Positions 4,507 to 23,090 of a DNA stretch of 23,687 nucleotides are shown here, in pieces. Every line of letters starts with the position of its first letter. Positions within the stretch are counted from its first letter, which is position 1. The stretch spans positions 1-23,687 of the forward strand of contig CAIYZZ010000272.1 in assembly GCA_903930805.1 (NCBI GenBank). Reading direction: 5' to 3'. The DNA comes from an uncultured Rhodocyclaceae bacterium (GTDB lineage Bacteria; Pseudomonadota; Gammaproteobacteria; Burkholderiales; Rhodocyclaceae). The position numbers and the translations under genes were made by a program. The notes below the pieces were generated by a model. It had not been told where the DNA came from. It saw only the letters and a program-made list of their open reading frames with translations, and searched no databases.

Positions 4507-4980
4507 TCAAGCCAGGGCGAAGAGATCGTCGCAAGCCGGTGCCGGCTGCATCCCCGCCAAGGCGCTGGCCAGCACCTGCTCGATGATGGCCGAAGATTGC
4601 TCAATCAAGCGCCAATGGCAGCGCAAGGCTTCACCCTCGCGGCGTACCCAGTCGCTGCGTTTGCCGAACGCCAGCGTGATTGTGGAAGATGGGCGTCCCG
4701 CCAGCGCCGACTTTTTCGCAATGATCGATGAAAAAGTGCGCAGGGCTTCGTCACGCAGCCAGCTTTCGGCGGCGTCGCGAATCTGGCGTGGCGCGGCTGC
4801 CGGCGGCAGGGGCAGGTGCAGTTCAGCCCCGACACGGGTAGGCTCGCGACAGGTAGTGTCGAGAATCAGCTTGAGCGTTGTACCCAGATGGGCAATGTCT
4901 GCGCCAGCTTGCCAGCACGCGTTCGCACCAGGGGCGTCGGCCTCAAGCCGCAGGGCAAGTTGCGGGGTGCGTGACTTCAT
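4507..4980 (-). CDS. Degenerate YgjP-like paralogue lacking the zinc site (probable pseudo-enzyme)
   Basis: A 157-residue protein with no obvious standard name. Read beside the next gene, it aligns along most of its length. IAHLGTTLKLIL (29-40) matches the LPVLGDEVRVRV region of YgjP. An arginine/alanine-rich helix follows. ITLAF...RSDW (101-111) matches LTLSS...RTRW. CHWRLI (121-126) matches LNWRLI, and AIIEQVLASAL matches LIDYVIAHEVA. In that alignment the catalytic HExxH residues become S139, A140 and G143, so peptidase activity should be absent. A copy of the 25-base dispersed repeat encodes KKSALAGR at 89-96. The ATG at 4980 is preferred because upstream codons run deep into plsC; even so the gene overlaps plsC by 38 bases. 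The frame is intact, so a retained pseudo-enzyme is more likely than a dead gene. Confidence 0.7.
   Translation of the reverse strand: MKSRTPQLALRLEADAPGANACWQAGADIAHLGTTLKLILDTTCREPTRVGAELHLPLPPAAAPRQIRDAAESWLRDEALRTFSSIIAKKSALAGRPSSTITLAFGKRSDWVRREGEALRCHWRLIEQSSAIIEQVLASALAGMQPAPACDDLFALA
4692..4716 (+). repeat. Dispersed 25-bp repeat, copy 1 (inside the YgjP pseudo-enzyme gene)
   Basis: Matches 24 of 25 consensus positions (core GTCCCGCCAGCGCCGAC then T5). Antisense to its host gene, where it reads KKSALAGR. Confidence 0.85.
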
Positions 4981-5701
4981 TATTTGGGTACAAGTGGGGG
5001 CTGATACGGCGCATTTCGGCTTCGATCCAGCTTTCGGCCGCAGCATTGATCTGGTCGGCTGCCTTCCCGCCCGGATCGATAGTGGGGCCGATGCTGACAG
5101 TCACCGTGCCGGGGGTTTTGAGGAAAGCCTGGCGGCGCCAGTATTCGCCGGAATTGAGGGCAACCGGTACCACCGGCACGCCGGACTTTGCAGCGAGCCA
5201 GGCACCGCCGATCTTGTAACGTCGATGTTGGCCAGGCGGTACGCGCGTACCTTCCGGGAAGACGATGACGCTGTAACCCTCGGCCAGACGCTGCTTGCCG
5301 CGCTCGGCCACCTGATTCAGCGCTGCCTTGCCTGCGGCGCGATTGATGCCGACGAACGGCATCAGCTTGATGCCCCAGCCAAAGAAGGGCAGCCAGTGCA
5401 ACTCCTTCTTGTAGACGAACGCCGTGAGCGGAAAGATGATCTGCAGGGCGAACGTTTCCCATGCCGACTGATGCTTGCAGAGAATCACGCAGGGGGTCGC
5501 CGGAATATTCTCCGCGCCCAGAATGCGCTGCTCGATGCCCAGCAAGTGGCGGATCAGCCACATCACCAGTCGTACCCAGGGCATGACAAAAAGTCGGCGC
5601 TGGTGTGACGGCAGCCAGAACACGCACAGCAGCGCCAGCACGATCAGCGGCGTGGTGATCAGCATCGCCAGCATGAACAACGAAGAGCGCAGGAAGATCA
5701 T
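4943..5701 (-). CDS. plsC: 1-acyl-sn-glycerol-3-phosphate acyltransferase
   Basis: A 252-residue inner-membrane LPLAT that acylates lysophosphatidic acid to phosphatidic acid. Residues 5-30 form a hydrophobic membrane segment. The catalytic motif is HQSAWE at 77-82, an Hx4E form often seen in betaproteobacterial members instead of Hx4D. The phosphate-binding FPEGTR is at 148-153, and VPVVPVALNSGEYW is the later conserved strand. The start ATG overlaps the gmhB stop in an ATGA, as expected for translational coupling. Copy 6 of the dispersed repeat lies in residues 30-38, just after the membrane segment, and reads PSHQRRLF there, a frame not used by most other copies. Confidence 0.92.
   Translation of the reverse strand: MIFLRSSLFMLAMLITTPLIVLALLCVFWLPSHQRRLFVMPWVRLVMWLIRHLLGIEQRILGAENIPATPCVILCKHQSAWETFALQIIFPLTAFVYKKELHWLPFFGWGIKLMPFVGINRAAGKAALNQVAERGKQRLAEGYSVIVFPEGTRVPPGQHRRYKIGGAWLAAKSGVPVVPVALNSGEYWRRQAFLKTPGTVTVSIGPTIDPGGKAADQINAAAESWIEAEMRRISPHLYPNNEVTHPATCPAA
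5588..5612 (-). repeat. Dispersed 25-bp repeat, copy 6 (inside plsC)
   Basis: Matches 24 of 25 positions on the minus strand (one change in the CCC). Sense to plsC, reading PSHQRRLF after the membrane segment. Confidence 0.8.
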
Positions 5702-6231
5702 CCGGTGAGTTTTTTTACGGCAGCGGCAAGGTCGGCAAACACTTGCGTGTCCTCGGGCAGTGCCGGATTGAGTTTTGTCGACTTGCCCTTGCCCGTCAGC
5801 ACCAGTAAGGGTTGCGCGCCAACGCTGACGGCGGCTTGCAGGTCGCGCAAGCTATCGCCCACTGCTGGCACACCGGCCAGATCGACGTTGTAACGCGCAG
5901 CAATTTCATCGAACATGCCAGATTTTGGCTTGCGGCAGCCACAGTTGTCGGCATTGGTGTGCGGGCAGAAGAAGATGGCGTCGATGCTGCCGCCGACATG
6001 CGAAGCCGCCTTGATCATCTTGTCGTGAATGGCGTTGAGCATGTCCATGCCGAACAGTCCGCGGCCGATACCCGACTGGTTAGTGCAGACGACGACGCGA
6101 TAGCCCCACTGGTTGAGACGCGCGATCGCCTCCAGGCTGCCGGGCAGCGGCAACCATTCTTCCGGCGACTTTATGTAGAGATCGGAGTCGTGATTGATGA
6201 CGCCGTCGCGGTCGAGGATGATGAGTTTCAT
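5698..6231 (-). CDS. gmhB: D-glycero-beta-D-manno-heptose 1,7-bisphosphate 7-phosphatase
   Basis: A 177-residue HAD-superfamily phosphatase of the ADP-heptose pathway, which supplies the LPS inner core. The nucleophile motif LDRDGVIN has D7 and D9. CTNQSGIGRG is motif II. The zinc-binding cluster that distinguishes GmhB from histidinol phosphatase is present as C89, H91, C97 and C99. VGDSLRDLQAA is the late acidic motif. Length is typical for the family. AGGA about 8 bases before the ATG may be its ribosome binding site, inside the end of glyS. It starts 2 bases after glyS and overlaps plsC by 4 bases. Confidence 0.95.
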   Translation of the reverse strand: MKLIILDRDGVINHDSDLYIKSPEEWLPLPGSLEAIARLNQWGYRVVVCTNQSGIGRGLFGMDMLNAIHDKMIKAASHVGGSIDAIFFCPHTNADNCGCRKPKSGMFDEIAARYNVDLAGVPAVGDSLRDLQAAVSVGAQPLLVLTGKGKSTKLNPALPEDTQVFADLAAAVKKLTG

Positions 6232-6233
6232 GC

Positions 6234-8354
6234 TCAGTTTCCTACCGAGAGCCTGGAAATGTCGGCAACCTGGTTCATCGCCAGATGGAGCATGGCGAGG
6301 AGGCCTAGCCGGTTGGCGCGCAGCGCCGGATCTTCGGCATTGACCATGACGTCGGTGAAAAAGCTATCGACTGGTGCGCGCAGCGCGGCCAATACCTGCA
6401 ACGCGGTGGCGAAATCGCCGGCGGTGAAGGCGGCATCCGCCTTGGGTTTGATCTCAAGCAGCGCAACATTGAGCGCAATTTCTGCAGCCTCCTGGAGCAG
6501 GGCCGTATCCACCTTGGCGGTGACTGTGTCCGCCACTTTCTTCAGGATGTTGCCAACACGCTTGTTGGCGGCGGCGAGACTGGCGGCTTCCGGCAGCACG
6601 GCAAAGGCACGCACGGCGGCGAGGCGTTTTGGAATGTCACCGAGGCGCTGCGGTCGCTGCGAGACGACGGCATCGACTTCCTGCGCCGTGTAGCCATGCT
6701 CGCGAAGGCTGCCGGCGAGGCGTTCATAGATGAAATCGGCGAGCGCAGTTTCTGCCGGCTTGAAACCGTCGACCGCAGCAAACGGCGTGGTGGCGGTCAC
6801 GAGCAAAGTATCCAGCGGCAGGTCGAGTTCGTTCTCGGCCAGCATGCGAATGACGCCCAGCGCATGGCGGCGCAGCGCGAATGGGTCTTTGTCACCGGTG
6901 GGGGTCTGGCCGATGCCGAACATGCCGACCAGTGTTTCCAGCTTGTCGGCCAGCGCGATGACAATGCCAACCTGGCTGCGCGGCAAACTGTCACCCGCGA
7001 AGCGGGGCTTGTAGTGATCCTCGACGGCATCGGCGATGGTGGCGGTCAGCCCGTCATGCAGCGCGTAGTAGCGGCCCATGATGCCTTGCAGTTCCGGGAA
7101 CTCGCCAACCATGTCGGTCAGCAGGTCGGCCTTGGCCAGCACGGCGGCTTGTTCGGCCTGTAAAGCGAGCGGCTCGCCACCCAGTTTGTCTCCGATGGTG
7201 CGGGCAATGGCGGCGACGCGCTGCATACGCTCGCCCTGGGTGCCTAGCTTGTTGTGATAGACGACCTTGCCCAAACCGGCCACACGGGATTCGAGCGACT
7301 TCTTTCGATCCTGGTCAAAGAAAAACTTGGCGTCGGCCAAGCGCGGACGCACGACGCGCTCGTTGCCGCCGATCACTGCGCTGGGGTCGGCCGGACTGAT
7401 GTTGCTGACGACGAGGAATTTGTTGGTGAGTTTGCCAGCAGTATCCAGCAACGGGAAGTATTTTTGGTTCGCCTTCATCGTCAGGATCAGGCATTCCTGC
7501 GGCACAGCAAGGAACTCTTCTTCAAACTGGCCGATCAGCACATTCGGACGCTCGACCAGTGCGGTGACTTCGTCAAGGAGCGCGTCGTCTTCGATCGGTT
7601 GCAGGTTCGGGCCGGCCTGGGTGGCAGCGGTGGCCAACTGACGTGAAATTTCGGCACGACGCTCGGCAAAGCTGGCGATTACAGCACCTTGTGTTTTCAG
7701 GGTTGCGGCATAGCTGTCGGCATCGGCGACGATGAGCGGATCGATCGTTGCTTCAAAGCGATGACCATGCGTTGCACGGCCCGAGCGCAGGCCGAGAATG
7801 GCGAGCGGCACGACATCGGTACCGTGGAGGGCAAGCAGGGCATGCGCCGGGCGGACAAAATTCACGGTGCTCCAGCCGTCCTGCAGCTGGTAAGTCATCA
7901 CTTTCGGGATTGGCAGGGCCGCCAGAGCGGTTTCGAGCGCTTTTTGCAGGCCCTCGGCCAGGGTCGCACCCTTGGCCAGACTGTCGTAGAACAGCACCTC
8001 GGTTTTGCCGTCATTCTCGCGGCGCAGCTTGGTTACAACCGATGGATCTGCGCCCAAAGCAGCAAGTTTCTTCAGCAGCGCCGGCGTGACGTTGCCGCCG
8101 GCATCGAGACCGACGGCCACCGGCATCAGCTTCTGTGCCACGGGCTTGTCGGCAGCCACGGCCGCAACGTCGGTGATATGTGCGGCGAGGCGGCGAGGCG
8201 AGGCGTAGGCGGTAACCGTGGCAGATGACTTGGCGAGGCCGGCGCTGGTCAGTGATTGTGCAAGCGTGTGAGCAAACACTTCGCCTAACTTCTTCAGTGC
8301 CTTGGGTGGCAGTTCTTCGACGAACAGTTCAACCAGAAGATTTTTCGCGGGCAT
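6234..8354 (-). CDS. glyS: Glycyl-tRNA synthetase, beta subunit
   Basis: A 706-residue beta subunit of the alpha2-beta2 glycyl-tRNA synthetase, which charges tRNA-Gly together with GlyQ. The N-terminus NLLVELFVEELPPKAL is diagnostic. Further family blocks include ATHGHRF, FLAVPQECLILTMKANQKYFPLLD, NERVVRPRLADAKFFFDQDRK, VYHNKLGTQGERM and the DALALRR-like DPFALRRHALGVIRML. The C-terminal helical part is the tRNA-binding domain. The open frame extends upstream to 8531, but that part overlaps glyQ and lacks homology. The ATG at 8354 begins MPAKNLLVEL one base after the glyQ stop and is clearly the start. Confidence 0.97.
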   Translation of the reverse strand: MPAKNLLVELFVEELPPKALKKLGEVFAHTLAQSLTSAGLAKSSATVTAYASPRRLAAHITDVAAVAADKPVAQKLMPVAVGLDAGGNVTPALLKKLAALGADPSVVTKLRRENDGKTEVLFYDSLAKGATLAEGLQKALETALAALPIPKVMTYQLQDGWSTVNFVRPAHALLALHGTDVVPLAILGLRSGRATHGHRFEATIDPLIVADADSYAATLKTQGAVIASFAERRAEISRQLATAATQAGPNLQPIEDDALLDEVTALVERPNVLIGQFEEEFLAVPQECLILTMKANQKYFPLLDTAGKLTNKFLVVSNISPADPSAVIGGNERVVRPRLADAKFFFDQDRKKSLESRVAGLGKVVYHNKLGTQGERMQRVAAIARTIGDKLGGEPLALQAEQAAVLAKADLLTDMVGEFPELQGIMGRYYALHDGLTATIADAVEDHYKPRFAGDSLPRSQVGIVIALADKLETLVGMFGIGQTPTGDKDPFALRRHALGVIRMLAENELDLPLDTLLVTATTPFAAVDGFKPAETALADFIYERLAGSLREHGYTAQEVDAVVSQRPQRLGDIPKRLAAVRAFAVLPEAASLAAANKRVGNILKKVADTVTAKVDTALLQEAAEIALNVALLEIKPKADAAFTAGDFATALQVLAALRAPVDSFFTDVMVNAEDPALRANRLGLLAMLHLAMNQVADISRLSVGN

Positions 8355-8355
8355 A

Positions 8356-9276: not shown

Positions 9277-9307
9277 GAGCTCAGGAGGGATTTTCAAAAT
9301 GGCGATT

Positions 9308-10819
9308 CTACCGGCTCCGGCGGCGTCGATAAGCGCCCAAGAGCGCGGGCAAACAGGCGCAGATCGCTAGTAGCAGCGCGAGTCCGTTACCCCAGCGGGT
9401 ATAGGGGGTTAGACCTGTGTAGCCTTGCGCCGTGAGATGAAGCGCGCCAGCGGTAAAGGGTGGCAATGCGGCGAGCACCCGACCGTCGGGCGCGATGGCC
9501 GCCGTGATGCCGGTGTTGGTGGCGCGCAGCATCATGCGGCCGGTTTCTAGCGCGCGCCAGCGGGCAATCTGCAAATGCTGCGGCTGGGCCAAGGAATCGC
9601 CGAACCAGGCGGTGTTGGAAAGATTGATCAGCAAGGTCGCGGCCGGCAGGGACTGGATAATTTCCTCGCCGAACAGATCTTCGTAGCAGATATTGGCGGC
9701 AATCTGCTGCCCGGCAATCTGCAGTGGTAGCTGCGTGGCCGGCCCGGCGGAAAAATTCGACATGGGGATACGCACGAGATTGAAGAACCAGGCGAAGCCC
9801 GGCGGCACGTATTCGCCAAAGGGCACGAGATGCCGCTTGGCGTAAGTCTGCACGCCCGTATTTTGTGCCGGAGGGATGACGCCGGCAGAAGTCGGTGCTG
9901 GCGGAATGGCGGATTGAATCGCCACAGCACCATTCACATAGCCGCCTTCACGGTGCCGCACCGCGACACCCAGCAGCAAGGCACCATGCCGCGTCAGCGC
10001 CTGCAATACGTCGCGTGGCACCTCGTTGAAAAACAGCGGAATCGCGGTTTCCGGCAACACGGTAAGCGCGGCGGGGTGGGCCTGTGCCAGCCGGATGTAG
10101 GTGTCGAGCGAAAGCGGCAGACGCTCCGGCTCCCACTTCAGGCTTTGCGGGATATTGCCTTGCAGCAGGCTGACGGAAAACGGCGCACCCGTGGGTTGCG
10201 TCCAGTCCATGTTTCTGAGCAGGGCGCCACTGCCCATGAGGCCGACGATCAGCAACCATGTTGCCCGCCGCTGCGGGCCAAACGCAAGAACTGCGGCAAT
10301 CAGTGCGGCGAGAAAACCGCTGCCATAGACGCCAATCACCGGAGCGAAGCCTGCCAGCGGGCTCGGCGGCGTTTGTGAGTAACCCAGTGCCAGCCAGGGG
10401 AAACCGGTAAACACCCAGCCACGCAGCCATTCGGTCAGTACCCACAGCCCCGCTGCCAGTAGTGGATTCCGCCAAAAAAAATCGGCGCTGGTGGCACGGC
10501 TGTTATACAAGTACCCCGCCAGTGCAGGAAACAGCGCAAGAAAGCTGCAAAACAACAAGGTGGCAATGATGGCCAAAGGCGCAGCCAAACCACCGACATC
10601 GTGCAGGCTGACATAAACCCAGGACACACCGGCGAGGAAAAATCCCAGACCCCAACTCAGGCCCAGCAGTGCCGCGTCACGCGGTGATTCAGCCCGCTGC
10701 CATAATCGGAGCAACAGTGCCAGCGAAAGGATGGGCAGGGGAAACAGCTCGAGAGGTGCAAAGCCGGCAACGGCGCTGCTCCCCATGATTGCCGCCAGCA
10801 ATGACGGCGGCATCTTCAT
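9308..10819 (-). CDS. lnt: Apolipoprotein N-acyltransferase
   Basis: A 503-residue inner-membrane enzyme that adds the third acyl chain to lipoproteins. Several membrane segments fill residues 1-205, followed by a periplasmic nitrilase domain with the catalytic triad E257 (LPETAIP), K328 ([11 protein letters not shown]) and C378 ([10 protein letters not shown]), then a C-terminal membrane helix at about 477-495. Two copies of the dispersed repeat fall inside. Copy 7 encodes RATSADFF (108-115) in a loop between membrane segments. Copy 9 encodes IPPAPTS (305-311), inside a stretch of about 20 residues inserted between a nitrilase strand and the lysine block. Typical Lnt proteins have a shorter link there, so both may be insertions. 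The start overlaps the corC stop in ATGA. Confidence 0.95.
9886..9910 (-). repeat. Dispersed 25-bp repeat, copy 9, diverged (inside lnt)
   Basis: Matches 20 of 25 positions. Sense to lnt, reading IPPAPTS in a loop that is longer than usual for the family. The weakest of the nine copies at base level, but the encoded peptide is like that of copies 2 and 8. Confidence 0.6.
10476..10500 (-). repeat. Dispersed 25-bp repeat, copy 7 (inside lnt)
   Basis: Matches 23 of 25 positions. Sense to lnt, reading RATSADFF in a loop between membrane segments. Confidence 0.78.
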
Positions 10820-11670: not shown

Positions 11671-11673
11671 AGG

Positions 11674-13099: not shown

Positions 13100-13105
13100 G
13101 CCAGA

Positions 13106-13459: not shown

Positions 13460-13499
13460 GCGGGGATGATAATCCGAACCGGACTGAAATGAGAAATCT

Positions 13500-14429
13500 A
13501 TGACGCGCGATCCCCTGTCCGCCGAAATCACCCCGCCCGAGATCTACGCGCGCCGCCGCGAATTCCTCAAGACTTCCATTGGTGCGGCCTCCTTGCTTGC
13601 CGTCCCACCAGCGCCGACTTTTGCAGCCACTGCCGCCTTCGGCGCTGGCGCGAAGCAGAGCGCGTTCTCCACCGCCGAGATGCCCACGCCGCTCAAGCAC
13701 ATTACCGGCTATTGCAACTTCTACGAGTTCGGTACCGACAAGGAGGATCCGCCGCGCCGCGCCCATCGGTTAGTCACCCAGCCATGGCAGATCACCCTCG
13801 AAGGCCTGGTGAAAAAGCCCCTGACGCTGGACATCGAGGAAATTCTCAAACTCGCCCCCATCGAGGAGCGCATCTACCGCATGCGTTGCGTCGAGGGTTG
13901 GAGCATGGTGATTCCGTGGCTCGGTTTTCCGCTGGCAGAGTTATTGAAGAAAGTCGAGCCGCTCGGTAACGCGAAATATGTCGAATTCGTCTCGGCGGTG
14001 CAACCCGAAACCATGATCGGCGTGCAATCCCGTGTGCTCGACTGGCCCTATGTCGAGGGTCTGCGTCTGGATGAGGCGCGTCATCCGCTGACCTTGTTGG
14101 GCGTGGGCCTGTATGGCGAAGTGCTGCCCAAACAAAATGGTGCGCCCCTGCGGCTGGTCGTGCCCTGGAAATATGGCTTCAAGAGCGCCAAGTCCATCGT
14201 CGCCATCCGCTTCGTCGAACACGAGCCGCGAAGTGCGTGGATGAAGTCCGCGCCGGGTGAATACGGTTTCTATTCCAACGTCAATCCAACGGTTGATCAT
14301 CCGCGCTGGAGCCAGGCCAGCGAACGGCGCATTGGTGAATTCACCAAGCGCAAGACGCTGATGTTCAACGGCTACGGCGAGCAGGTCGCGAGTTTGTATG
14401 CCGGCATGGATCTGCGGAAACATTTCTGA
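13500..14429 (+). CDS. msrP: Protein-methionine-sulfoxide reductase, catalytic molybdenum subunit
   Basis: A 309-residue periplasmic molybdopterin enzyme (formerly YedY) that reduces methionine sulfoxide in envelope proteins. A twin-arginine signal, RRREFLK at 18-24, precedes a short hydrophobic stretch. C130 in [13 protein letters not shown] is the molybdenum ligand. [29 protein letters not shown] and the Tyr/Asn-rich C-terminal region are typical. The dispersed repeat encodes AVPPAPTF at 34-41, between the hydrophobic part of the signal and the mature domain, where the AxA-like cleavage site should be. This may move the cleavage point but leaves the catalytic domain intact. Its stop and the msrQ start share one base (TGATG). 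Confidence 0.94.
13599..13623 (+). repeat. Dispersed 25-bp repeat, copy 2 (inside msrP)
   Basis: Matches 24 of 25 positions (T4 instead of T5). Sense to msrP, reading AVPPAPTF at the signal-peptide junction. Confidence 0.85.
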
Positions 14430-15001
14430 TGTCGCTGGCTGTACTGAAAACACTGGCCTTCCTGTTTTCCCTGCTGCCGCTCGGCTACTACGCCTGGAGT
14501 GCCTGGCACGATACGCTGGGGGCGAATCCGATCGAAGCGGTGACGCGCGGCCTCGGCACCTGGGCTCTGAATTTCCTGATTATTACGCTCGCCGTGACGC
14601 CCTTGCGCAAGCTTACCGGCTGGTACATGCTGATGCGCCTGCGGCGTATGCTTGGGCTGTTTGTGTTTTTTTATGCCCTGCTGCACCTGACGAGCTACCT
14701 GTGGTTCGACCAGTTTTTCGACTGGGGCAAGATTGCAAAAGACATTCTCAAGCGCCCCTTCATCACCGTCGGCATGGCGACCTTCTTCCTGCTGGTGCCG
14801 TTGGCCGCCACGTCGAATCAATTCGCCATCAAAAGACTCGGTGGCCGCCGCTGGCAGAATCTGCACCGCACGGCCTACGCTTGCGCCATCCTTGCGGTGT
14901 TGCACTACAGCTGGCTGGTGAAGGCGGACCAGTCGCAGCCCTTGCTCTACGCCGGCATTCTTACGTTACTGCTGGGCTTGCGCGCCCTTCATGGCTTGTG
15001 A
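14429..15001 (+). CDS. msrQ: Heme-binding membrane subunit of the methionine sulfoxide reductase system
   Basis: A 190-residue integral membrane protein that passes electrons from the respiratory chain to MsrP. About five to six hydrophobic segments are visible. Candidate heme ligands are the histidines in LLHLTSYLW, NLHRTAY and LHYSWLV, which match the ferric-reductase-like fold of MsrQ. LGANPIEAVTRGLGTWAL and TPLRKLTG are family signatures. It overlaps msrP by one base, indicating coupled translation. Its 3' end overlaps the convergent bioC gene by 13 bases. Confidence 0.94.
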   Translation: MSLAVLKTLAFLFSLLPLGYYAWSAWHDTLGANPIEAVTRGLGTWALNFLIITLAVTPLRKLTGWYMLMRLRRMLGLFVFFYALLHLTSYLWFDQFFDWGKIAKDILKRPFITVGMATFFLLVPLAATSNQFAIKRLGGRRWQNLHRTAYACAILAVLHYSWLVKADQSQPLLYAGILTLLLGLRALHGL

Positions 15002-15810
15002 AACCTGACGATGGCGCGACCATCCTCTGCCAGCCTGGGTGCGGCCTTCCAGGCATGGCCATAAATGATTTCGAAACGCGCCGGGAGCAATCCATCCTCG
15101 CGCCCCCAGGCTGTGAATACCTGCCGCCACTGCTGCCAAGGCAACTGCCCCAGCAGACTGTTGCGCACGCCGAGATGGCGCTGGTCGGCAAGAAAGCGGC
15201 GCGCACTGGTGTAGGTCAGCGTCAGCATTTCCATTTCCATGACCGGGTCGGCGAAGCCTGCCGCTGCCAGCATGTCACCGATGTCGTGCATGTCGAGAAA
15301 AGCTGGCGCCGTCCCGCCAGCGCCGACTTTTTGGCGTGCCACGCGCAACTCTTTCAATGTGTCCGGCCCGAGCATGGCGAACTGCAACAGGCCGCCCGTG
15401 GCCAGAACGCGGTGTAGCTCGGCGAAGGCCGGTCGTGTATCCGACAACCAGTGCAGCATCAGGTTCGACCAGACCAGATCGAGGCTGCCGTCAGCCAAGG
15501 GCAGGGCGCACACATCGGCATTCAGGCAACGCGGTTGGTGGCCACGCAGGCGCGCCCACCAACCGGCACGTGCCTGCACCGTCGCCAGCATCGGTCGGGC
15601 AAAATCCACCGCCAGCGGCAAGGCTTCCGGATAGCGACGCTGCAGCTCACGCACGCCGTCGCCGGTGGCGCAGCCGATGTCGGCCATGCACTGCGGTGTC
15701 AGGCGCACAAAATCGAGCCGGGCCGCCAGGCGCCGACCGACTTCACGCGCCAGCACCGCCGCACTGTCATAAGATGCAGCTGCACGGGGAAAATTTTCTC
15801 GCGGGCTCAT
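14989..15810 (-). CDS. bioC: Malonyl-[acyl-carrier-protein] O-methyltransferase
   Basis: A 273-residue SAM-dependent methyltransferase that disguises malonyl-ACP as its methyl ester to start pimelate synthesis for biotin. The N-terminus RENFPRAAASYDSAAVLAREV is typical. SAM motif I is ADIGCATGDG (43-52). NLMLHWLSD, LLQFAMLGPDTLKELR and FLDMHDIGDML are BioC blocks. Copy 3 of the dispersed repeat encodes KVGAGGTA (161-168), just before FLDMHDIGD, in a region that links the Rossmann core to a variable part. The frame extends to 15972, but the ATG at 15810 begins at the conserved N-terminus. No other biotin gene is in the window. It diverges from comF with only 23 bases between starts. Confidence 0.92.
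   Translation of the reverse strand: MSPRENFPRAAASYDSAAVLAREVGRRLAARLDFVRLTPQCMADIGCATGDGVRELQRRYPEALPLAVDFARPMLATVQARAGWWARLRGHQPRCLNADVCALPLADGSLDLVWSNLMLHWLSDTRPAFAELHRVLATGGLLQFAMLGPDTLKELRVARQKVGAGGTAPAFLDMHDIGDMLAAAGFADPVMEMEMLTLTYTSARRFLADQRHLGVRNSLLGQLPWQQWRQVFTAWGREDGLLPARFEIIYGHAWKAAPRLAEDGRAIVRFHKP
15308..15332 (+). repeat. Dispersed 25-bp repeat, copy 3 (inside bioC)
   Basis: A perfect 25 of 25 copy, antisense to bioC, reading KVGAGGTA there. A 7-bp inverted repeat is formed with the flanking sequence: GCTGGCG (15302-15308) with CGCCAGC (15315-15321). Confidence 0.88.
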
Positions 15811-15833
15811 TGCCCGATTATCCACCATCAATA
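15811..15833. promoter_or_regulatory. Very short divergent gap between bioC and comF
   Basis: Only 23 bases separate the two ATGs, so at least one promoter must lie inside the opposite gene. The gap is AT-rich, but no -10/-35 pair can be called in it. Confidence 0.3.
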
Positions 15834-16544
15834 ATGGTCCAACCCTTGTCAATTTCATCGCTCCTCGATCTGTTACTGCCGCGCAGTTGCCTGCTCTGCG
15901 GAGCATCGACAGTGTCGCCCCCGTTCGCATTGTGCCCTGGCTGCCTGGATGATTTGCCGCGCCTGCCAGCAACCGCCTGCCCGCTTTGCGCCACGCCGCT
16001 CGGTGCGCCTGCGCCTGCTTGTGGTGCCTGCCTCAAGTCGCCACCCGCTTACGATGCCACGTTTGCCGCACTGCGCTATGGTTTTCCGGTCGATCGACTG
16101 GTGCAGAACCTCAAGTTCAATCACCGCTTGGCAACTGCTGCCTGCTTTGCTGATCTTCTGCTGTCCGGCGCGCATCCCGTAGGTGATGTGATCGTACCCG
16201 TGCCGCTGGCGCCGCTGCGGCTCCGGGAGCGCGGTTTCAATCAGGCGCTGGAAATTGCCCGCCCCCTGGCGCGTTCCCTGCGTCTGCCGCTTGACCCGAC
16301 GACGCTTGTGCGTGCGCGTGAAACCGTGCCACAAAGTCTGCTGCCGTGGCGCGCCCGCAAGGGCAACATGCGCCACGCCTTCGGCTGTCGTGGCGATTTT
16401 TCGGGCAAGGCGGTCATCGTCGTCGATGATGTCATGACCACTGGCACCACCCTGGATGCTGTCGCGCGCGTGCTCAAGGATCATGGGGCGGTGTGCGTCA
16501 CGAACTGGGTCACCGCGCGCGCGGTGAGAGAAAGCCTTACCTGA
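15834..16544 (+). CDS. comF: ComF family phosphoribosyltransferase-like protein
   Basis: A 236-residue cytoplasmic protein of the ComF/GntX family, needed for natural transformation in several bacteria. The N-terminal zinc-finger region has paired cysteines: SCLLCGA, LCPGCLDD, CPLCATP and CGACLKS. The C-terminal half is a type I phosphoribosyltransferase fold with the PRPP loop VVDDVMTTGTTLDA. VPVPLAPLRLRERGFNQA is the family block between them. The frame is open further upstream, but the ATG at 15834 (MVQPLSISSLLDLLLP) starts just before the typical N-terminus and does not overlap bioC. Its 3' end overlaps the convergent mshN gene by 8 bases. Confidence 0.92.
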   Translation: MVQPLSISSLLDLLLPRSCLLCGASTVSPPFALCPGCLDDLPRLPATACPLCATPLGAPAPACGACLKSPPAYDATFAALRYGFPVDRLVQNLKFNHRLATAACFADLLLSGAHPVGDVIVPVPLAPLRLRERGFNQALEIARPLARSLRLPLDPTTLVRARETVPQSLLPWRARKGNMRHAFGCRGDFSGKAVIVVDDVMTTGTTLDAVARVLKDHGAVCVTNWVTARAVRESLT

Positions 16545-17574
16545 GCTTTTGTTCGATCACCGATGCCATGTCGGCCGGCAGGTTGCCGACTTCCCTGGCC
16601 CGGGCATAGGCGTCTTTTGCCTCGCCACCCTGGCCGGCGTTTTCGAGTGCAAGCCCGAGCCCAAACCACCAGCGACCTTCATTGGGGCGCAAGGCCAACG
16701 CGGCTTTGAAACGTTCCGCCGCTTCGGCAGAGCGCAGCTGTTTTTGCAGCAGATAGGCAAAGAGCCCCTGGTAGTCGGCATCCGCGCCGGCGTAGGCGGC
16801 ATGGTGGCCGAGGGTTTCCACTGCGGCAGCCGTGTTACCCTGCTCGAATTGCAGACGGGCGAGGATGACGGCCCAACCGGACTGCGCCGGATCGAGTGCA
16901 AGACCGCTTTTTGCCACCCGCAGGGCATCTCCCCACTGCTTGCCGCCGACCAGCACCGACAACAAGGCCTGACGCGCCTTGGCCAGTGCGGGATCGTACT
17001 CAAGTGCCCGCTGCAGGAATGGCTGGGCGGCGGGATTATCGCCGCGTTTCACCGCCTGCATGCCTTTGCGATATTCGGCCTCGGCCAATTCACGACCCTG
17101 ACCGCTGCGCGAGCGCTTGTCGATCTGCGCATCGGCGAGGTTGGTTGCGGCGGCGGGCACTGCGGGTTGCGCCGCAGGTTTGGTTTCGCGAGCGACGCTT
17201 GCTGGTTTGGCTGCAGGGGGTGCAACTTGTCCCTGCGACAGCAAGGTGGATAGCTTCATTTCACCCAGATCAATGGGTGGTGGGGGTGGTGGGGGTGACG
17301 GCGGCGCCACAATAGTCGGCGCTGGCAGGACGGCAGCCACTGCGGTGGAGGGCGTTGCAGACGGGGGTGCCGCTGCGGGTGCCATGAATACACTCACCAG
17401 AATGCCGGTGATCAGCGCGCCGACGCCCATACCGAGTGCCAGCGTGTGCCAGGCTTGCCGCCGACTTGTCGATACGGGCGGCAAGGTACGCAGACGCGCA
17501 GGCAAGCCGGCGCGCTCCTGATCACTGGCCTGGCGCGTGTCCAGGTCGCGCAGCATTTGATTGATGACGCTCAT
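16537..17574 (-). CDS. mshN: MSHA biogenesis protein MshN, TPR protein
   Basis: A 345-residue inner-membrane protein. MSVINQMLRDLDTR is the classic MshN N-terminus. A single membrane helix lies at about 43-64. A long proline/alanine-rich periplasmic linker follows (66-130, including PPSPPPPPPP), then tetratricopeptide repeats from about 165 to the end (AEAEYRKGMQAVKRGDNPAAQPFLQRAL and later repeats). It is expected to scaffold pilus assembly. Copy 8 of the dispersed repeat encodes AVLPAPTI (81-88) in the linker. The gene is separated from mshM by an 88-base gap holding a REP-like repeat, unlike the coupled genes before it. Confidence 0.88.
   Translation of the reverse strand: MSVINQMLRDLDTRQASDQERAGLPARLRTLPPVSTSRRQAWHTLALGMGVGALITGILVSVFMAPAAAPPSATPSTAVAAVLPAPTIVAPPSPPPPPPPIDLGEMKLSTLLSQGQVAPPAAKPASVARETKPAAQPAVPAAATNLADAQIDKRSRSGQGRELAEAEYRKGMQAVKRGDNPAAQPFLQRALEYDPALAKARQALLSVLVGGKQWGDALRVAKSGLALDPAQSGWAVILARLQFEQGNTAAAVETLGHHAAYAGADADYQGLFAYLLQKQLRSAEAAERFKAALALRPNEGRWWFGLGLALENAGQGGEAKDAYARAREVGNLPADMASVIEQKLR
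17310..17334 (-). repeat. Dispersed 25-bp repeat, copy 8 (inside mshN)
   Basis: Matches 22 of 25 positions. Sense to mshN, reading AVLPAPTI in the proline-rich linker. Confidence 0.72.
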
Positions 17575-17590
17575 TGCCTATACTTTCGTC

Positions 17591-17660
17591 GGGCCGCCCC
17601 AAGGAGGCATGCACCCCCTGTAGGGGACAGCGAGCCGGGTTTACGAGCGTGGGGCCCCAT
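17591..17660. repeat. REP-like GC-rich intergenic repeat between mshM and mshN
   Basis: This gap element has nested inverted symmetry: outer GCCCC (17596-17600) with GGGGC (17651-17655), and inner CCCC-TGTA-GGGG (17615-17626). The layout GCCGCCCCAAGGAGGCATG, then CCCCCTG-TAGGGGACAGCGAGC, then GAGCGTGGGGCC, resembles, from memory, intergenic repeats common in Burkholderiales and Rhodocyclales genomes. A folded RNA here could stabilise or attenuate the mshM-mshN transcript. There is no T-run, so a simple terminator is not supported. Confidence 0.6.
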
Positions 17661-17662
17661 TC

Positions 17663-18496: not shown

Positions 18497-18498
18497 GG

Positions 18499-20241
18499 CT
18501 ATCGCGGCGGGAGAGCGAGCGGGGGCAGGTCGAAATTTCGCAGGCGCTCGTTGCTTTGCTCGATATCCTTCACCCAACTGTGGTCGTCATGGATGACGGT
18601 GGGTTTGAGCAGGATGACCAGTTCGCGCTTGCTGTAGGAACTGCCGCGCTGGCCGGCGAGCGCTCCCGCAGACGAATTGATCGTACCCGGCAGTCCGCTG
18701 CGATCGCTGGATTGTCCCTGGGTCATGAGGCCGCCGATGGCTACGATGTTGCCGTCCTGCACCCGCACGATGCTGTCGGTCTCATTGACGCTGGAGGAGG
18801 CCAGCGGCAACTTGAACTGGCCCATCGTGCCAAGGTCGATCAGCTTTTCCTTTTCCGCCACCGTGCTGATCGCCGGATGCACATGCAGGATAATGTTGTT
18901 ATCGTCATCGATCTGGGGTGTCACGTCGAGCGAGATGCCCGAAAAATAGGGCTGTAGCGTCAGGCTGGGCGTTGCCGTGGTTCCTCCCGCCGTGCTGGTG
19001 GTCGTGGTCGTCGTGACGTTGGTGACGAATAGTTCGTCGGTGCCGACCTTCAGTACCGCCTTTTGGTTGTTGATCGTCGCGATGCGCGGGCTCGACAACA
19101 CCGAAACCGTACCCTGAGTTTCGAGGAAACTCAGCAGCGCAGCGAAGTTGGCCGTCTGGAACGCCAGGCCGATGAAGCCCTTGCCGAGGGCGGAGGCAAT
19201 CACCGAACCAGCCAATCCTGGCGTGATCGTCGCCGTTGAGTTACCGACAAAATTAGCCGAAGAGGTTGAGGTTCCCGTCGTGGCGTCAGTGGTGATCTTA
19301 ACCCCGTTGGGCATCAGCGTCGCGCCTGGCTGGGCAACCCCCATGCTCAGACGGTTGCTGTTGCTGTTGAACGATGACCAGTTGATGCCGGCTTGGTACC
19401 CCTGATTGAGCGACACCTCGAGGATCTTCGCCTCGAGCATCACCTGCCGCTCGACCATGACCTGGGTGGCCTTGAGGTATTGTTCGACGGAACGCATTTC
19501 GCTTGGCAGGGCACGAATCACCACCACGCCGGAAATACTATTCACAACGACGCTGCGGCCCTCCCCGGCGACGATGGTTGTCAGGGCCGACTGCATGTCG
19601 CGCCAGAAATCGGTATCCGAATTTGTCTGGACGCGGCTGGTCGTGCTGCCGCCCCCTGTTCCCCCGCTGCCGGTGCCTGCGGGTACCGGTGTCGCCCCGG
19701 TACTGGGCGTGGATGAGCCTGCCGCCCCGCTACTGGCAATCGAACTGGATGTCACGCGCAGTTCAGTTGTCCCCTGGCGGCGGCTGGCCAGATAGTTAAC
19801 CTGGAAGACGCGTGTTTGCAGGGTGTTCGGCTGAATCGTGATGCGCGACCCCTTGATGTTGAACTCGTAACCGTAGAGTTCGCGGATGGATTCCAGCACC
19901 TCCTTTACCGTTACATCCTTCAGGTTGACGGTGATGCTGCCGGTGACTTCGGGGCCGACCAGCATGTTATAGCGTGTGCCGGTGACGATCGCCATGAAGA
20001 CCTGTGTCGCCGGCGCATTGACCACCGAGAGATCGAAGCGCGTCTCACTGTTCTCGTGTTGCGGCATACTGACTGTCAGCGGCGCGAGCACGCCCATTTC
20101 AGCAGTTTCCCGGCTCTTGCGGTTGCTGACGGCCTGGGTGAGTTCTTCACCGATGCGTTCCCTGACCATGTCGGGACGCGCTGGCGGCGAGCCGCAGGCA
20201 GTCACCAGCAGCGCTACAAGAACGACCAGTAACGCGTTCAT
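18499..20241 (-). CDS. mshL: MSHA outer-membrane secretin MshL
   Basis: A 580-residue secretin lipoprotein, the outer-membrane channel through which the pilus passes. The lipobox LVTAC places the lipidated cysteine at residue 16. An STN/N0-like domain (about 80-150) precedes a low-complexity Ser/Gly/Thr linker (about 175-215). An N1-type region follows, with VVVNSISGVVVIRALPSEMRSVEQYLK. The C-terminal secretin domain contains VSVLSSPRIATINNQKAVLKVG, ISLDVTPQIDDDNNIILHVHP and KRELVILLKPTVI. It overlaps the mshK stop in ATGA and is followed by mshM after 2 bases. Length is normal for MshL. Confidence 0.93.
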   Translation of the reverse strand: MNALLVVLVALLVTACGSPPARPDMVRERIGEELTQAVSNRKSRETAEMGVLAPLTVSMPQHENSETRFDLSVVNAPATQVFMAIVTGTRYNMLVGPEVTGSITVNLKDVTVKEVLESIRELYGYEFNIKGSRITIQPNTLQTRVFQVNYLASRRQGTTELRVTSSSIASSGAAGSSTPSTGATPVPAGTGSGGTGGGSTTSRVQTNSDTDFWRDMQSALTTIVAGEGRSVVVNSISGVVVIRALPSEMRSVEQYLKATQVMVERQVMLEAKILEVSLNQGYQAGINWSSFNSNSNRLSMGVAQPGATLMPNGVKITTDATTGTSTSSANFVGNSTATITPGLAGSVIASALGKGFIGLAFQTANFAALLSFLETQGTVSVLSSPRIATINNQKAVLKVGTDELFVTNVTTTTTTSTAGGTTATPSLTLQPYFSGISLDVTPQIDDDNNIILHVHPAISTVAEKEKLIDLGTMGQFKLPLASSSVNETDSIVRVQDGNIVAIGGLMTQGQSSDRSGLPGTINSSAGALAGQRGSSYSKRELVILLKPTVIHDDHSWVKDIEQSNERLRNFDLPPLALPPR

Positions 20242-20639
20242 TGTGCCGCTCCATTTTTCGCCGTCCCACCAGCCCCGACTTTTATGATCTTTTTCTCGGC
20301 GGCCGGAATCAGGCGCAGGGTTTCCTCGCCGCCAGGTCCTTTCAAAACCACTGCATCCTCACTCACTTTGACTAGCCTGGCCTCGCCCACCTTGCCACCC
20401 AGTTCGACGACCTCACCATTGATCAATGCGGCCGGGTTGCCTTGTTTTCTCAGGATTACCGACTGCAATCCACTCGCGTCAGGAACCGAGCCACCCGAGG
20501 TTGCTTCCGCTGCTTTTCTGGCATCTGCGGGCGGACGCGTCGGGTCTGCCAGTTGTGCATTCACAGCGCCCGGCAGTCCGGCCGGCACCAACACCATGAT
20601 AGCTATTCTAGCAATGATCGCCGTCACACCACGAGCCAT
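20238..20639 (-). CDS. mshK: MSHA biogenesis protein MshK
   Basis: A 133-residue exported protein. The ATG at 20639 starts a hydrophobic signal ending AVNA, followed by the mature start QLADPTRPP, which is the MshK/PilP-like signature. LQSVIL, ALINGEVVELGGKVGEARLVKVSEDAVVLKGPGGEETLRL form the small beta domain found in PilP and MshK pilotin-like partners of the secretin. The last residues, KVGAGGTA and a short tail, are encoded by copy 4 of the dispersed repeat, so the natural C-terminus may have been replaced or extended. The frame is open far upstream, but that part is antisense-free shadow of mshJ in another frame. It overlaps mshJ by 16 bases and mshL by 4. Confidence 0.85.
   Translation of the reverse strand: MARGVTAIIARIAIMVLVPAGLPGAVNAQLADPTRPPADARKAAEATSGGSVPDASGLQSVILRKQGNPAALINGEVVELGGKVGEARLVKVSEDAVVLKGPGGEETLRLIPAAEKKIIKVGAGGTAKNGAAQ
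20260..20284 (+). repeat. Dispersed 25-bp repeat, copy 4 (3' end of mshK)
   Basis: Matches 23 of 25 positions. Antisense to mshK, where it encodes KVGAGGTA close to the C-terminus. Confidence 0.8.
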
Positions 20640-21334
20640 GCCGCCTCCAGGCTCAAGGTATAAATGGTGAGGGTCAGTTCGCTCACCGGGTATTGCTGCA
20701 CCACCAGGCGCATGGCGCCACGTATCAATTTTTGTGGCCCGCTTTCGAGGTCGGTGACATACGCCAGCAGGTCGTGATAGTTGCCGGCGATCTTGATCTC
20801 GATGCCGTGCTTGTAAATATTGCCACCAAGCATCACGGCCTTTTCTTTCTTGGCGGCGTCCGGCGCGCTCTCTTCCTTGCCCCCCTTTTTTTCCGGTGGT
20901 GCAATCAGCGGCTGTGGCGTCAGGGTATTCAGGCTCACCAGCGACAGGCCACGGTGCCGTGTCAAAAGGGTCTGGAGCAGGGCGGGGGCTTGCTGCGGCA
21001 TCACCAGTACGCGGTCGAAACTGTGGATGTCGCGATCGGTTTCGCTCAACTGCTGGTGCAACTGCTCCAACACGGTACGGTTGGCCGCATCCGGATCCTT
21101 CCCTTGTGCTATCAATACTGCCAACTGGGCACCCAACTGCCCCTGTTCGTTCTGCTGCTGTTCGATATTCTTTTTCAACCGGACTTTCTGCAACTGTGCC
21201 GGCTCGATCCATAACGAGTGGCCGCCGAAGAGGATCGCCACCAGCAGCGCACCGATTATCAGCAGCTTCTCGCGCTGTTGCATGGTGGTAAAGCGCGCCG
21301 ACCATCCAGCCCATTGTGTCTTGATACCGCTCAT
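20624..21334 (-). CDS. mshJ: MSHA biogenesis protein MshJ (PilO-like)
   Basis: A 236-residue bitopic inner-membrane protein of the pilus alignment complex. A short cytoplasmic N-terminus (WSARFTTMQQREKLL) leads into one membrane helix at about 23-40. A coiled-coil stretch (50-115) with many Gln and Lys residues follows, then a ferredoxin-like periplasmic domain (GNIYKHGIEIKIAGNYHDLLAYVTDLES). A lysine-rich linker (PPEKKGGKEESAPDAAKKEK) separates the two halves. The start overlaps the mshI2 stop in ATGA, and its end overlaps mshK by 16 bases. Confidence 0.88.
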   Translation of the reverse strand: MSGIKTQWAGWSARFTTMQQREKLLIIGALLVAILFGGHSLWIEPAQLQKVRLKKNIEQQQNEQGQLGAQLAVLIAQGKDPDAANRTVLEQLHQQLSETDRDIHSFDRVLVMPQQAPALLQTLLTRHRGLSLVSLNTLTPQPLIAPPEKKGGKEESAPDAAKKEKAVMLGGNIYKHGIEIKIAGNYHDLLAYVTDLESGPQKLIRGAMRLVVQQYPVSELTLTIYTLSLEAAWLVV

Positions 21335-22020
21335 AAGGTTGCGCCCTTGTCACCGGCTCTGACCTTGACGGGAATCAGCGTGAACTCATGGTAAGGCGCG
21401 CGCAAGGTCGTACCCGTTGGGGGCTGCGGTGTTTTCGTAGCAGCTGCGACGCCAAGCGGCGCATCGGGTTTCCCCGCATCGAGCTTGAGCGCAGCGAATT
21501 CCCGCCCCTGGAAGGCCGCTTCCTTGTTCAGCCGGCGAATGTATTCGGGTAGCAGGGCAGGATCAATAGTGCGTCCCTTGACTTCCATGCTGCCGCTGCT
21601 CGCATCGATGGAAAAATTCATCAACCAGAGTCCGGCAACCGTCTGGCGGGCAAAGCCCTGCAGGTAGGCGGCAAACGAACTGCCTGCCTCGGGCCCCAGG
21701 CTCTGGCGCAGCATGACCAGCACCTCGCCGCGGGCTCCCAGCAGCAGGCGTTTGGCCACGATTTCCTGCTCGAGGCGCGGGTCAGGCTTGCGGGTGGCGA
21801 CTTGCTGACCAAGCTCGGTAATCTGTTTGCGCGTGGCCTTGAGCTGGCTCTCGCTGGCGTCAGCCTGAGCCGTGAGTGCTGGCAGATCAAGCCGCTCCAG
21901 ATATCCCGTGGCACTGACGGCAACTACCAGAACAGCCATTAGCATCACCACATTCCCCAGTGCCAGCCAGTCGCGCTTGCGGAGGAGTGCGGGGTCGTAG
22001 AGGTTGATCTGCTGAGCCAT
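21331..22020 (-). CDS. mshI2: MSHA biogenesis protein MshI2 (PilN-like)
   Basis: A 229-residue bitopic inner-membrane protein. AQQINLYDPALLRKRDW is the PilN/MshI2 N-terminal motif that binds the PilM-like partner in the cytoplasm. One membrane helix lies at about 20-40, followed by a coiled coil and a periplasmic PilN-like domain (LWLMNFSIDASSGSMEVKGRTIDP). The open frame extends to 22119 but would overlap mshI by 89 bases; the ATG at 22020 sits 10 bases after the mshI stop and starts the conserved motif. No Shine-Dalgarno is evident, so translation may be coupled to mshI. Confidence 0.87.
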   Translation of the reverse strand: MAQQINLYDPALLRKRDWLALGNVVMLMAVLVVAVSATGYLERLDLPALTAQADASESQLKATRKQITELGQQVATRKPDPRLEQEIVAKRLLLGARGEVLVMLRQSLGPEAGSSFAAYLQGFARQTVAGLWLMNFSIDASSGSMEVKGRTIDPALLPEYIRRLNKEAAFQGREFAALKLDAGKPDAPLGVAAATKTPQPPTGTTLRAPYHEFTLIPVKVRAGDKGATL

Positions 22021-22030
22021 GGATTTTATT

Positions 22031-22957
22031 CTACTGTCCCCGCAGGGCCGCGCCCAGCGCCAGCCAGCTTTCCGCTTGAGTAGCGATTTCGGCGAGACGA
22101 GGCGTTGCCTCGATGTCAAACACGTCCGCCAGATTGGCGCTCGCTACCGGCAGGGACAGGTTGGTGCGGAGATACTCGACAAAGGCCTCTCCGCCGGGCA
22201 GTGGTCCGACCAGCAGCCGTGTCAATGGCACAGTGCTGTAGTTGCGATCAAAGTTGTCGAGGGAGCGCTGGATGTCGAGCAGAACGCGCTCGTGCAGGGT
22301 TTCGGCCTGTGGCCCGACCAGTTCCGGGCCGCTCACGTCAATATGGCGCGTCATGAACAACTCACCCTGATAATTAATGGTGAGCAAGCCACCCTTGCTG
22401 TCGAAGGACACCAGTGCCAAGCCACGGTTGGGCTCTTCGAAAAGGGCGGCAAGATTGCGTTGCGCCAGTTCGGGGACATCGATCGCGGCCAGCGGCGCTT
22501 TTGCATCCTGAAACAGATGCGCGCGCGGCTGCAGGACATCATGGCTCGCCACCACAACCCAAAGCTGCTGTGCGCGGCCGCCCGGTGCGGGAATATCGAG
22601 AATGTCGAGGTTCGCTCGATCGACGGGAAAATCGACCATTTCTTTCACCCGCCAGCGCAGGGTTTCGCGCAATTCATCGCGCGGCATATCTTTCGCGTTG
22701 TCGGGGGCATCGACCTGCAACAACTGGTATTGACCATGCCACAACAACGTGGTGCAGCGGTTGCGGGCCAGTCGCTTGGCGTTCCTCAGGCGTTTCAGGG
22801 TATCGAGCTCGCTGCCTTCGCGGGCGAAGCTGTCGCAGGCGTGCACGAGCGGCCGCGCGTCGCGCCGGAGCGTCACATCTGCAATTGCAATGCGGTCGTC
22901 ACCGAACACCACCGATGTCCAGCCGTCCGCTTGCGCCTGTTTTTGCCAAAAAGCCAT
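22031..22957 (-). CDS. mshI: MSHA biogenesis protein MshI (PilM-like)
   Basis: A 308-residue cytoplasmic protein related to PilM, with an actin-like fold. TLRWRVKEMVDFPVDRANLDILDIP matches the PilM/MshI helix-strand block. LALVSFDSKGGLLTINYQGELFMTRHIDVSG resembles the second actin-like subdomain, and LLDIQRSLDNFDRNYSTVPLTRLLVGP the C-terminal block. It is the first gene of the msh run. The 131-base gap upstream would hold its promoter, and that gap also contains a repeat copy and a hairpin. Confidence 0.87.
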   Translation of the reverse strand: MAFWQKQAQADGWTSVVFGDDRIAIADVTLRRDARPLVHACDSFAREGSELDTLKRLRNAKRLARNRCTTLLWHGQYQLLQVDAPDNAKDMPRDELRETLRWRVKEMVDFPVDRANLDILDIPAPGGRAQQLWVVVASHDVLQPRAHLFQDAKAPLAAIDVPELAQRNLAALFEEPNRGLALVSFDSKGGLLTINYQGELFMTRHIDVSGPELVGPQAETLHERVLLDIQRSLDNFDRNYSTVPLTRLLVGPLPGGEAFVEYLRTNLSLPVASANLADVFDIEATPRLAEIATQAESWLALGAALRGQ

Positions 22958-23088
22958 ATCCGGGCCTGTTCTACCTTGTGCGCTGAGTCTAACTTTCAGC
23001 TAAATGACGAACTGTTTGAAAAGAAGGAGAAAAATCAGCTAGATGTGTTGCGGGACGGTACCCGCGCCGTCCCGCCAGCGCCGACTTT
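22958..23088. promoter_or_regulatory. Intergenic region upstream of the msh operon
   Basis: The gap between the acyl-CoA carboxylase stop and mshI is 131 bases. From the carboxylase side it holds repeat copy 5, a GC-rich hairpin, and an AT-rich tract (23010-23040, with runs of T on the minus strand). A TTAGACT sequence on the minus strand (revcomp of about 22984-22990) could be a -10 box, but no matching -35 box is clear. The msh promoter most likely lies in this AT-rich part. Confidence 0.35.
23050..23075. terminator. Perfect 9-bp hairpin downstream of the carboxylase gene (possible terminator)
   Basis: GCGGGACGG (23050-23058) and CCGTCCCGC (23067-23075) are perfect inverted arms around an 8-base loop. 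The right arm is the first part of repeat copy 5. On the minus strand a run of T occurs only about 15 bases past the stem, so this is not a classic rho-independent terminator. It could still act as one, or as an RNA-stabilising 3' end for the carboxylase transcript. Confidence 0.45.
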
Positions 23089-23090
23089 TT
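23066..23090 (+). repeat. Dispersed 25-bp repeat, copy 5 (intergenic, touching the pccA stop)
   Basis: A perfect 25 of 25 copy. Its last two T bases are part of the pccA stop codon complement, and its first bases form one arm of the 9-bp hairpin at 23050-23075. The only copy outside a coding body. Confidence 0.88.

Follow-up and report, generated by a model that had tools for sequence, protein, structure and literature searches.

A 25-bp dispersed repeat of Rhodocyclaceae as a putative DNA uptake-type recognition sequence

A 25-bp word maintained at the DNA level

The window analysed here, the whole 23,687 nucleotides of contig CAIYZZ010000272.1 (assembly GCA_903930805.1) from an uncultured Rhodocyclaceae bacterium, carries nine copies of a dispersed 25-bp word (Table 1). 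All nine were recovered in a 25-mer search exactly where the original prediction, made from the letters of the window, had placed them, with five on the plus and four on the minus strand, two perfect and seven with 1–5 mismatches; eight lie within open reading frames (ORFs), as had been claimed, and one between ORFs. The names proposed for the host genes stood in part: Pfam supported Lnt, the acyltransferase (PlsC), the molybdopterin oxidoreductase (MsrP) and the methyltransferase (BioC), while ‘MshN’ matched tetratricopeptide repeats (TPRs) only, ‘MshK’ had no Pfam match and the YgjP relative gave a sub-threshold match only. A search for the 17-base core of the word at ≤3 mismatches gave 10 matches in the window, whereas 100 dinucleotide shuffles set the expectation at 0.47 and never exceeded 2. 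The additional match, at 13638–13654 on the minus strand, departs from the core at 3 positions, cannot be extended to the 25-mer even at ≤7 mismatches and probably arose by chance.

The genome to which the window belongs, G000, is incomplete and comprises 3.25 Mb in 558 contigs. When 77 copies taken from 302 kb of it were aligned, a word with sharp limits emerged, YGCCGTCCCRCCAGCGCCGACTTTT, in some copies followed by a fifth T and with no clear signal beyond; sampling of G026 and G055, which represent two further genera, yielded the same word. Nine positions outside the core used for selection still carry ∼13 bits, as summed from the alignment. Genome-wide, the 17-base core has 706 matches in G000 at ≤3 mismatches (366 forward and 340 reverse) versus 40 of the reversed pattern (23 and 17), and 442 versus 0 at ≤1 mismatch. 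For the 25-mer at ≤4 mismatches, 85 copies were found in the 302 kb sample of G000 and none with the reversed control. The complete genome G017 holds 402 copies of the word, 201 on each strand, with a reversed control of 0. In an unbiased listing of over-represented 10-mers, the word led in four of the five genomes sampled (G000, G017, G026 and G055), and in the fifth, G002, an array of clustered regularly interspaced short palindromic repeats (CRISPR) came first and the word led once the array was masked. The species hosting this array is the one with fewer and reworded copies of the repeat.

The use of reading frames was surveyed on 335 copies (≤3 mismatches) in 1.88 Mb from ten genomes, with crude ORF calls (longest, weighted by GC contrast) and with orthologous copies of sister species included, so that the copies are non-independent. 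Within ORFs lay 249 copies, and 86 (26%) lay outside, though ORFs span 93% and only 6.6% of the sequence is outside. All six frames were used, with 73/40/15 copies opposite to the gene and 59/44/18 along it; the commonest frames give the bland readings KVGAGGTA (73) and AVPPAPTF (59), and the rarest the basic KSRRWRDG (15) and PSRQRRLF (18). This upheld the view that the repeat acts at the DNA and not the protein level: the use of all six frames ruled out a shared protein motif, and the shuffle and reversed controls ruled out chance or composition. Orientation relative to the ORF was unbiased (121 along versus 128 opposite), neighbouring copies showed no run of orientation (the same in 81 of 164, or 81 of 165 as entered in the test, a difference without effect), and the 100 forward copies listed, of 201, were evenly spread over the first half of the complete G017 genome; no strand polarity along the replichore was detected in G017 (201/201), in G000 (366/340) or between neighbours. 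In gapless comparisons, from which gapped pairs were excluded, identity was 0.936 in the motif versus 0.761 in its flanks, with the motif higher in 20 of 20 when three sister pairs were pooled, and for the G017/G002 pair the difference was weaker, at 0.953 versus 0.866 in the direction from G002 to G017. Thus, constraint on the word at the DNA level is well supported.

Table 1. Copies of the word in the window and related features
Feature	Coordinates	Strand	Mismatches	Location	Reading or content
Repeat copy	4692–4716	+	1	Within ORF 4507–5046 (−)	KKSALAGRP
Repeat copy	5588–5612	−	1	Within PlsC-like acyltransferase ORF 4943–5701 (−)	LPSHQRRLF
Degenerate repeat copy	9886–9910	−	5	Within Lnt ORF 9308–10819 (−)	
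Repeat copy	10476–10500	−	2	Within Lnt	SRATSADFF
Repeat copy	13599–13623	+	1	Near N-terminus of MsrP-like ORF 13500–14429 (+)	AVPPAPTFA
Repeat copy	15308–15332	+	0	Within BioC-like methyltransferase ORF 14989–15972 (−)	QKVGAGGTA
ORF adjoining the BioC copy	15336–16544	+			Double zinc ribbon and phosphoribosyltransferase domain (Pfam); presumably ComF-like by its domains
Repeat copy	17310–17334	−	3	Within TPR protein ORF 16537–17574 (−), predicted as MshN	AVLPAPTIV
Repeat copy	20260–20284	+	2	Near 3′ end of predicted MshK (ORF on −)	IKVGAGGTA
Repeat copy	23066–23090	+	0	Between two ORFs; touches stop codon of biotinyl-domain ORF 23089–23622 (−)	
Composite hairpin form of the repeat	L309:520–720 and other G017/G002 loci				
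Two 54-bp composite units, translated	L328:2814–2946 (G017)			C-terminal end of a Tex-like protein	KVGAGG..VPPGAASSRR twice
CRISPR array	Joined block 175195–179138 of G002 (within L246–L255)				57 copies of TCTTAATCCCTTTGAAATCAGGGCATGTTTCCTAC

Distribution and change among relatives

Copies at ≤1 mismatch were counted in 101 genomes, comprising 19 of the genus, 42 of other genera of the family (one each) and 40 of other families. Eighteen of the 19 genus members hold 35–502 copies, the lowest being G016 with 35, and G006 has a single copy. Among the other genera of the family, three of 42 are rich (G019, 268; G026, 368; G055, 311), two have 17 and 10 copies and the remaining 37 have 0–5, and the genomes of other families hold 0–4 each. 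A different dialect serving as the main word of motif-poor relatives was considered and rejected, as no dominant such word emerged in 100 kb of G040 or 40 kb of G006; part of the repeat (GGCGGGACGG) did appear among the over-represented words of G040 (7 versus 0.6), and a search with the ends only gave 0 matches in G006, 4 in G016 and 10 in G040.

Among the 80 stretches listed from the named collection, of at least 109, titles include Rhodocyclaceae, Sulfuritalea, Sulfurisoma, Propionivibrio, Azonexus and Thiobacillus, some being only class-level and one Gammaproteobacteria; these 80 derive from 32 assemblies, counted by accession prefix, all titled metagenome-assembled genome (MAG), with no cultured carrier among them. 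Two loci of G055 are 100% identical to the MAG GS19 over 6–8 kb. Among viral contigs (IMG/VR, L148–L174), 27 stretches carry the exact 21-mer; they total 238 kb and 40 copies, a density of 0.168 per kb that is raised because the stretches were picked for a copy, and may represent host flanks or phages of these hosts. A search of plasmids with one 3.5 kb piece of the window gave no match, and Rfam covariance models gave no match in the window at the gathering threshold.

Orthologues were compared for four of the eight in-gene copies of the window (4692, 5588, 9886 and 10476). At the 4692 site, G026 and G055, each from another genus, carry perfect 25-mers at the corresponding position, yet their proteins are only 52% and 46% identical there; the orthologous site lacks the word in G040, G006 and G045, and small indels lie nearby. 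The PlsC copy at 5588 aligned without gaps to the orthologues of all 14 genomes, several of them being near-matches. In Lnt, the 10476 copy recurs at 1–2 mismatches in eight of nine other aligned genus members (the exception is G006), with small indels nearby, and the degenerate 9886 copy sits in an extra stretch of ∼17 residues missing from most of 18 aligned orthologues.

For the closest pair, G017 and G002 (87% identity over ∼400 kb aligned), 87 and 45 copies, respectively, were projected onto the partner by a BLAST-based procedure, which loses fast-changing regions and left 35 of 87 and 17 of 45 copies unaligned or with poor flanks. From G017 to G002, 29 copies were unaligned, 6 had poor flanks, 23 were kept, 27 had changed without a gap and 2 with a small gap; from G002 to G017 the corresponding numbers were 13, 4, 21, 6 and 1. 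Hence 33 of the 36 changed alignable copies (27/29 and 6/7) were gapless, three had small gaps and none faced a gap of at least 20 bases, with the reading that ‘changed’ denotes ≥4 mismatches in the partner, that 12 of the 33 gapless members moved only from 3 to 4, and that one small-gap case looks essentially intact. At sites with the word in G017 but not in G002, the ends usually matched, and the differences fell together on several bases of the centre: in the 16 gapless sites with strong change, bases 11–14 of the 25 differed in 9–12 sites each and the first four in none. Two sites could be traced with G004 as outgroup; the word is retained there, which places the change in G002. Copies at >2 mismatches were omitted from this outgroup comparison. 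One site of G004 (11369) faces a large gap in both sisters. The word is mostly gapless relative to sisters and orthologues; it has thus generally been written over sequence already present, and insertion is not the rule. The original prediction of insertion into tolerant positions thus did not hold in general and applies to exceptions such as the extra Lnt stretch at 9886 and the gap-facing copy of G004.

The two sisters also differ in number and wording. At ≤1 mismatch, G017 holds 259 copies and G002 129, an approximately two-fold difference. In 526 kb of G002, the centre NAGCC before GCCGA is common to eight copies, which fall in four reading frames, versus none in 533 kb of G017 (Fisher p 0.0006); across the 101 genomes this variant gave 20 matches in G002 (7 exact), where it is a minority, and 0–3 in each other genome. 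Such a variant centre resembles the dialects of the Neisseria DNA uptake sequence (DUS), in which minority dialects amount to 7–12% (PMC3630211). The multi-base differences in place also follow what has been reported for Neisseria, where the bases separating a new DUS from its homologue are often too numerous to be explained by point mutation (PMC2397512).

Some loci of G017 and G002 are composite, consisting of the word, an inverted degenerate word and a second word with a 54-bp period. In 533 kb of G017 there are seven such loci with nine units in all, and in 526 kb of G002 there are four. One composite folds as a strong hairpin (z −4.7) versus an unstructured solo word (z 0.04). Four loci are composite in one sister and a single word in the other, about one 54-bp unit apart, and at one of these G004 shows a degraded composite trace only. 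No composite was present among the arm hits in 302 kb of G000 or in samples of G026, G055, G001, G012, G008 and G010. The composites are taken as a lineage-specific offshoot, though they make the best argument for a mobile-element origin.

Competence machinery and known uptake sequences

Profile searches were performed for ComEC and the ComP-domain pilin in 61 genomes and for PilQ, DprA and ComEA in eight. ComEC was detected in G000 as well as in 17 of the 18 other genus members (55 of 61 overall), and the ComP-domain pilin (PF16732), a family-level match only, in G000 and 16 of 18 (53 of 61 overall, motif-poor genomes included); PilQ was present in all eight genomes, and DprA exceeded the cut-off in six. 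PF12836 exceeded its cut-off in six of eight, always within frames of 795–836 aa, and the 826-aa protein of the complete G017 we take to be Tex; G002 has one further sub-threshold match in a 234-aa frame. As the machinery is present in motif-poor relatives too, it permits competence and does not prove it.

The uptake signal sequence (USS) of Pasteurellaceae (AAAGTGCGGT) has a core accompanied by AT tracts, and the repeat likewise shows a core followed by a T/A tract. Its reverse complement begins AAAAGTCGGCG, superficially like AAAGTGCGG of the USS, with no homology claimed. Both occur within genes and with an apparently random spread (PMC2346458). They differ in that the repeat is unbiased relative to the ORF, whereas one orientation is favoured in the known cases (PMC2346458). 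With the DUS of Neisseriaceae (ATGCCGTCTGAA and dialects), the repeat shares many copies in both orientations, intragenic positions in permissive places, in-place differences exceeding single point mutations and species dialects sharing part of the word (PMC3630211, PMC2397512). Its first letters also resemble the Neisseria DUS (TGCCGTC plus C or T), a likeness that is possibly due to chance. It differs in being twice as long as the DUS word of 10–12 bp, in belonging to a different bacterial family and in being several-fold less numerous than the ∼1900 DUS copies in 2.2–2.3 Mb (PMC3630211), and further in that DUS frequently form inverted pairs at terminators, whereas few inverted pairs of the repeat occur outside one clade.

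The repeat as a putative uptake word, and its rivals

On balance, we favour the reading that the repeat is a DNA uptake-type recognition sequence (USS/DUS-like) of Rhodocyclaceae, outside Pasteurellaceae and Neisseriaceae. The features of an uptake system are recognizable in its many-fold over-representation in both orientations genome-wide, its change in place rather than by inserted units (apart from 9886, the G004 site 11369 and the composites), its intragenic copies in permissive frames together with an enrichment between genes, and its sharing at some orthologous sites with a patchy distribution between genera. To our knowledge, only uptake sequences combine dialects with hundreds of in-place, mostly intragenic copies that favour neither orientation. 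In such a system, the word on free double-stranded DNA would be bound by a receptor at the cell surface, possibly a minor type IV pilin, the pilus with PilQ would pull the word-bearing DNA in, and ComEC and DprA would hand it on to recombination; biased exchange could then drive the word to high copy number. Uptake sequences have been described for two bacterial families (PMC1939737, PMC2346458). No relevant match to the 12-base core of the word, its 15-base pieces or its two main translations was found in the literature searched, which did not extend to subscription papers, and nothing relevant linking uptake sequences with Rhodocyclales or Rhodocyclaceae was found among the papers listed; the single text match was a 12-base piece in a probe-assay paper. 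Longer pieces of the word were likewise absent from the literature searched, as the original prediction of no named family had it, and the uptake-type word of Rhodocyclaceae that we consider the most likely explanation is, as far as searched, not previously described.

Several observations weigh against an uptake role. The specificity of the word, ∼40 bits, seems more than a receptor needs, though it is inflated by the selection of hits. The consensus shows no CTG core of the Neisseria kind, and the Neisseria 10-mer DUS GCCGTCTGAA is not enriched (1 in 2.28 Mb of ten samples, reversed control 3). Inverted pairs within ≤150 bp are rare, with one among 85 G000 copies and none in nine other samples at ≤4 mismatches, outside the G017/G002 composites, whose inverted arm is more degenerate. 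From G017 to G002, the direction in which G002 has changed copies, the motif was not significantly more conserved than its flanks (0.889 versus 0.836; 11 of 17 comparisons favoured the motif and 4 the flanks, p 0.11). The density in sister-unaligned DNA was not lower (0.215 versus 0.145 per kb, p 0.12), unlike in Neisseria. DprA was not found in the incomplete G000 and was only sub-threshold in G019, and no free-standing ComEA was found in the eight genomes, TIGR00426 giving no match over the cut-off, which again departs from Neisseriaceae. Nor does the machinery discriminate, as G006 with its one copy also has ComEC, PilQ, DprA and the pilin.

Palindromic repeats of the repetitive extragenic palindrome (REP) or miniature inverted-repeat transposable element (MITE) type are dispersed, as the word is, and a mobile element of this kind, or solo remnants of one, is the least improbable of the rivals, though we consider it unlikely; a transposase would have copied a hairpin unit, and collapse between direct repeats would have left the word. 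The hairpin-forming composites with their 54-bp period, the four loci at which the sisters differ by about one such unit, the extra stretch at Lnt 9886 and the G004 copy opposite a gap in both sisters would all fit, and the unaligned or poorly flanked copies (35/87 and 17/45) could hide insertions. Palindromy and insertion with a change in length are, however, features of one clade's composites only: the common form is an unstructured 25-mer, mostly within ORFs, whose solo copies differ in place (33 of 36 gapless, no large gap), and composites are missing from 302 kb of G000 and six other samples and leave only a degraded trace in G004. Rickettsia palindromic elements, which are in-gene inserts adding extra codons, resemble the repeat in lying within genes and in being read in different frames, but most of its comparable copies are not extra. 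A further rival is a selfish word without cellular function, spreading by ectopic gene conversion or template switching, in which short homology at the ends lets a copy overwrite the middle of a near-match. The central clustering of sister differences (bases 11–14 in 9–12 of 16 sites, the first four in none) and the recurrent replacement centres of G002 speak for it; against it, the sharper conservation than in flanks implies purifying selection or continual conversion, and self-spreading does not predict that G002 changed two copies kept by the outgroup. We rank this reading below the mobile element.

Lower again we place a genome-wide binding site of a chromosome protein, whether with a function like that of Chi, of FtsK-orienting polar sequences (KOPS) or of nucleoid occlusion, or for a nucleoid-associated protein. 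Hundreds of near-exact, DNA-constrained copies, evenly spread among those listed, would suit such a site, but the lack of strand polarity speaks against Chi- or KOPS-like roles, as does the even distribution of forward copies over half a genome, and patchiness between genera with near-absence from the congener G006 would be odd for a core chromosome function. That composition, codon use or a shared protein motif produced the repeat by chance is hardly conceivable: GC-rich words are common at 59% GC and two frames read as bland linker, but the reversed pattern gave 0 versus 442 at ≤1 mismatch in G000, six frames are used, and 77 of 82 genomes outside the genus hold 0–5 copies.

If the favoured uptake reading is true, environmental Betaproteobacteria would provide a third, independent case and would show that sequence-tagged DNA exchange evolves repeatedly; how such words start, how their dialects shift and whether they are selfish or useful would become testable. 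For these questions, G017 and G002, 87% identical with a two-fold copy difference and a different centre, form a natural experiment, and G006 and G016 are natural negatives for finding the receptor gene. The word may be a tag for recognising kin DNA, and more tentatively, a 25-bp ‘kin tag’ of Rhodocyclaceae could operate in DNA exchange without a classical ComEA, with a dialect switch under way in G002 and palindromic derivatives arising from the word within that clade. Transformation of Rhodocyclaceae is a practical use to which the word could be put.

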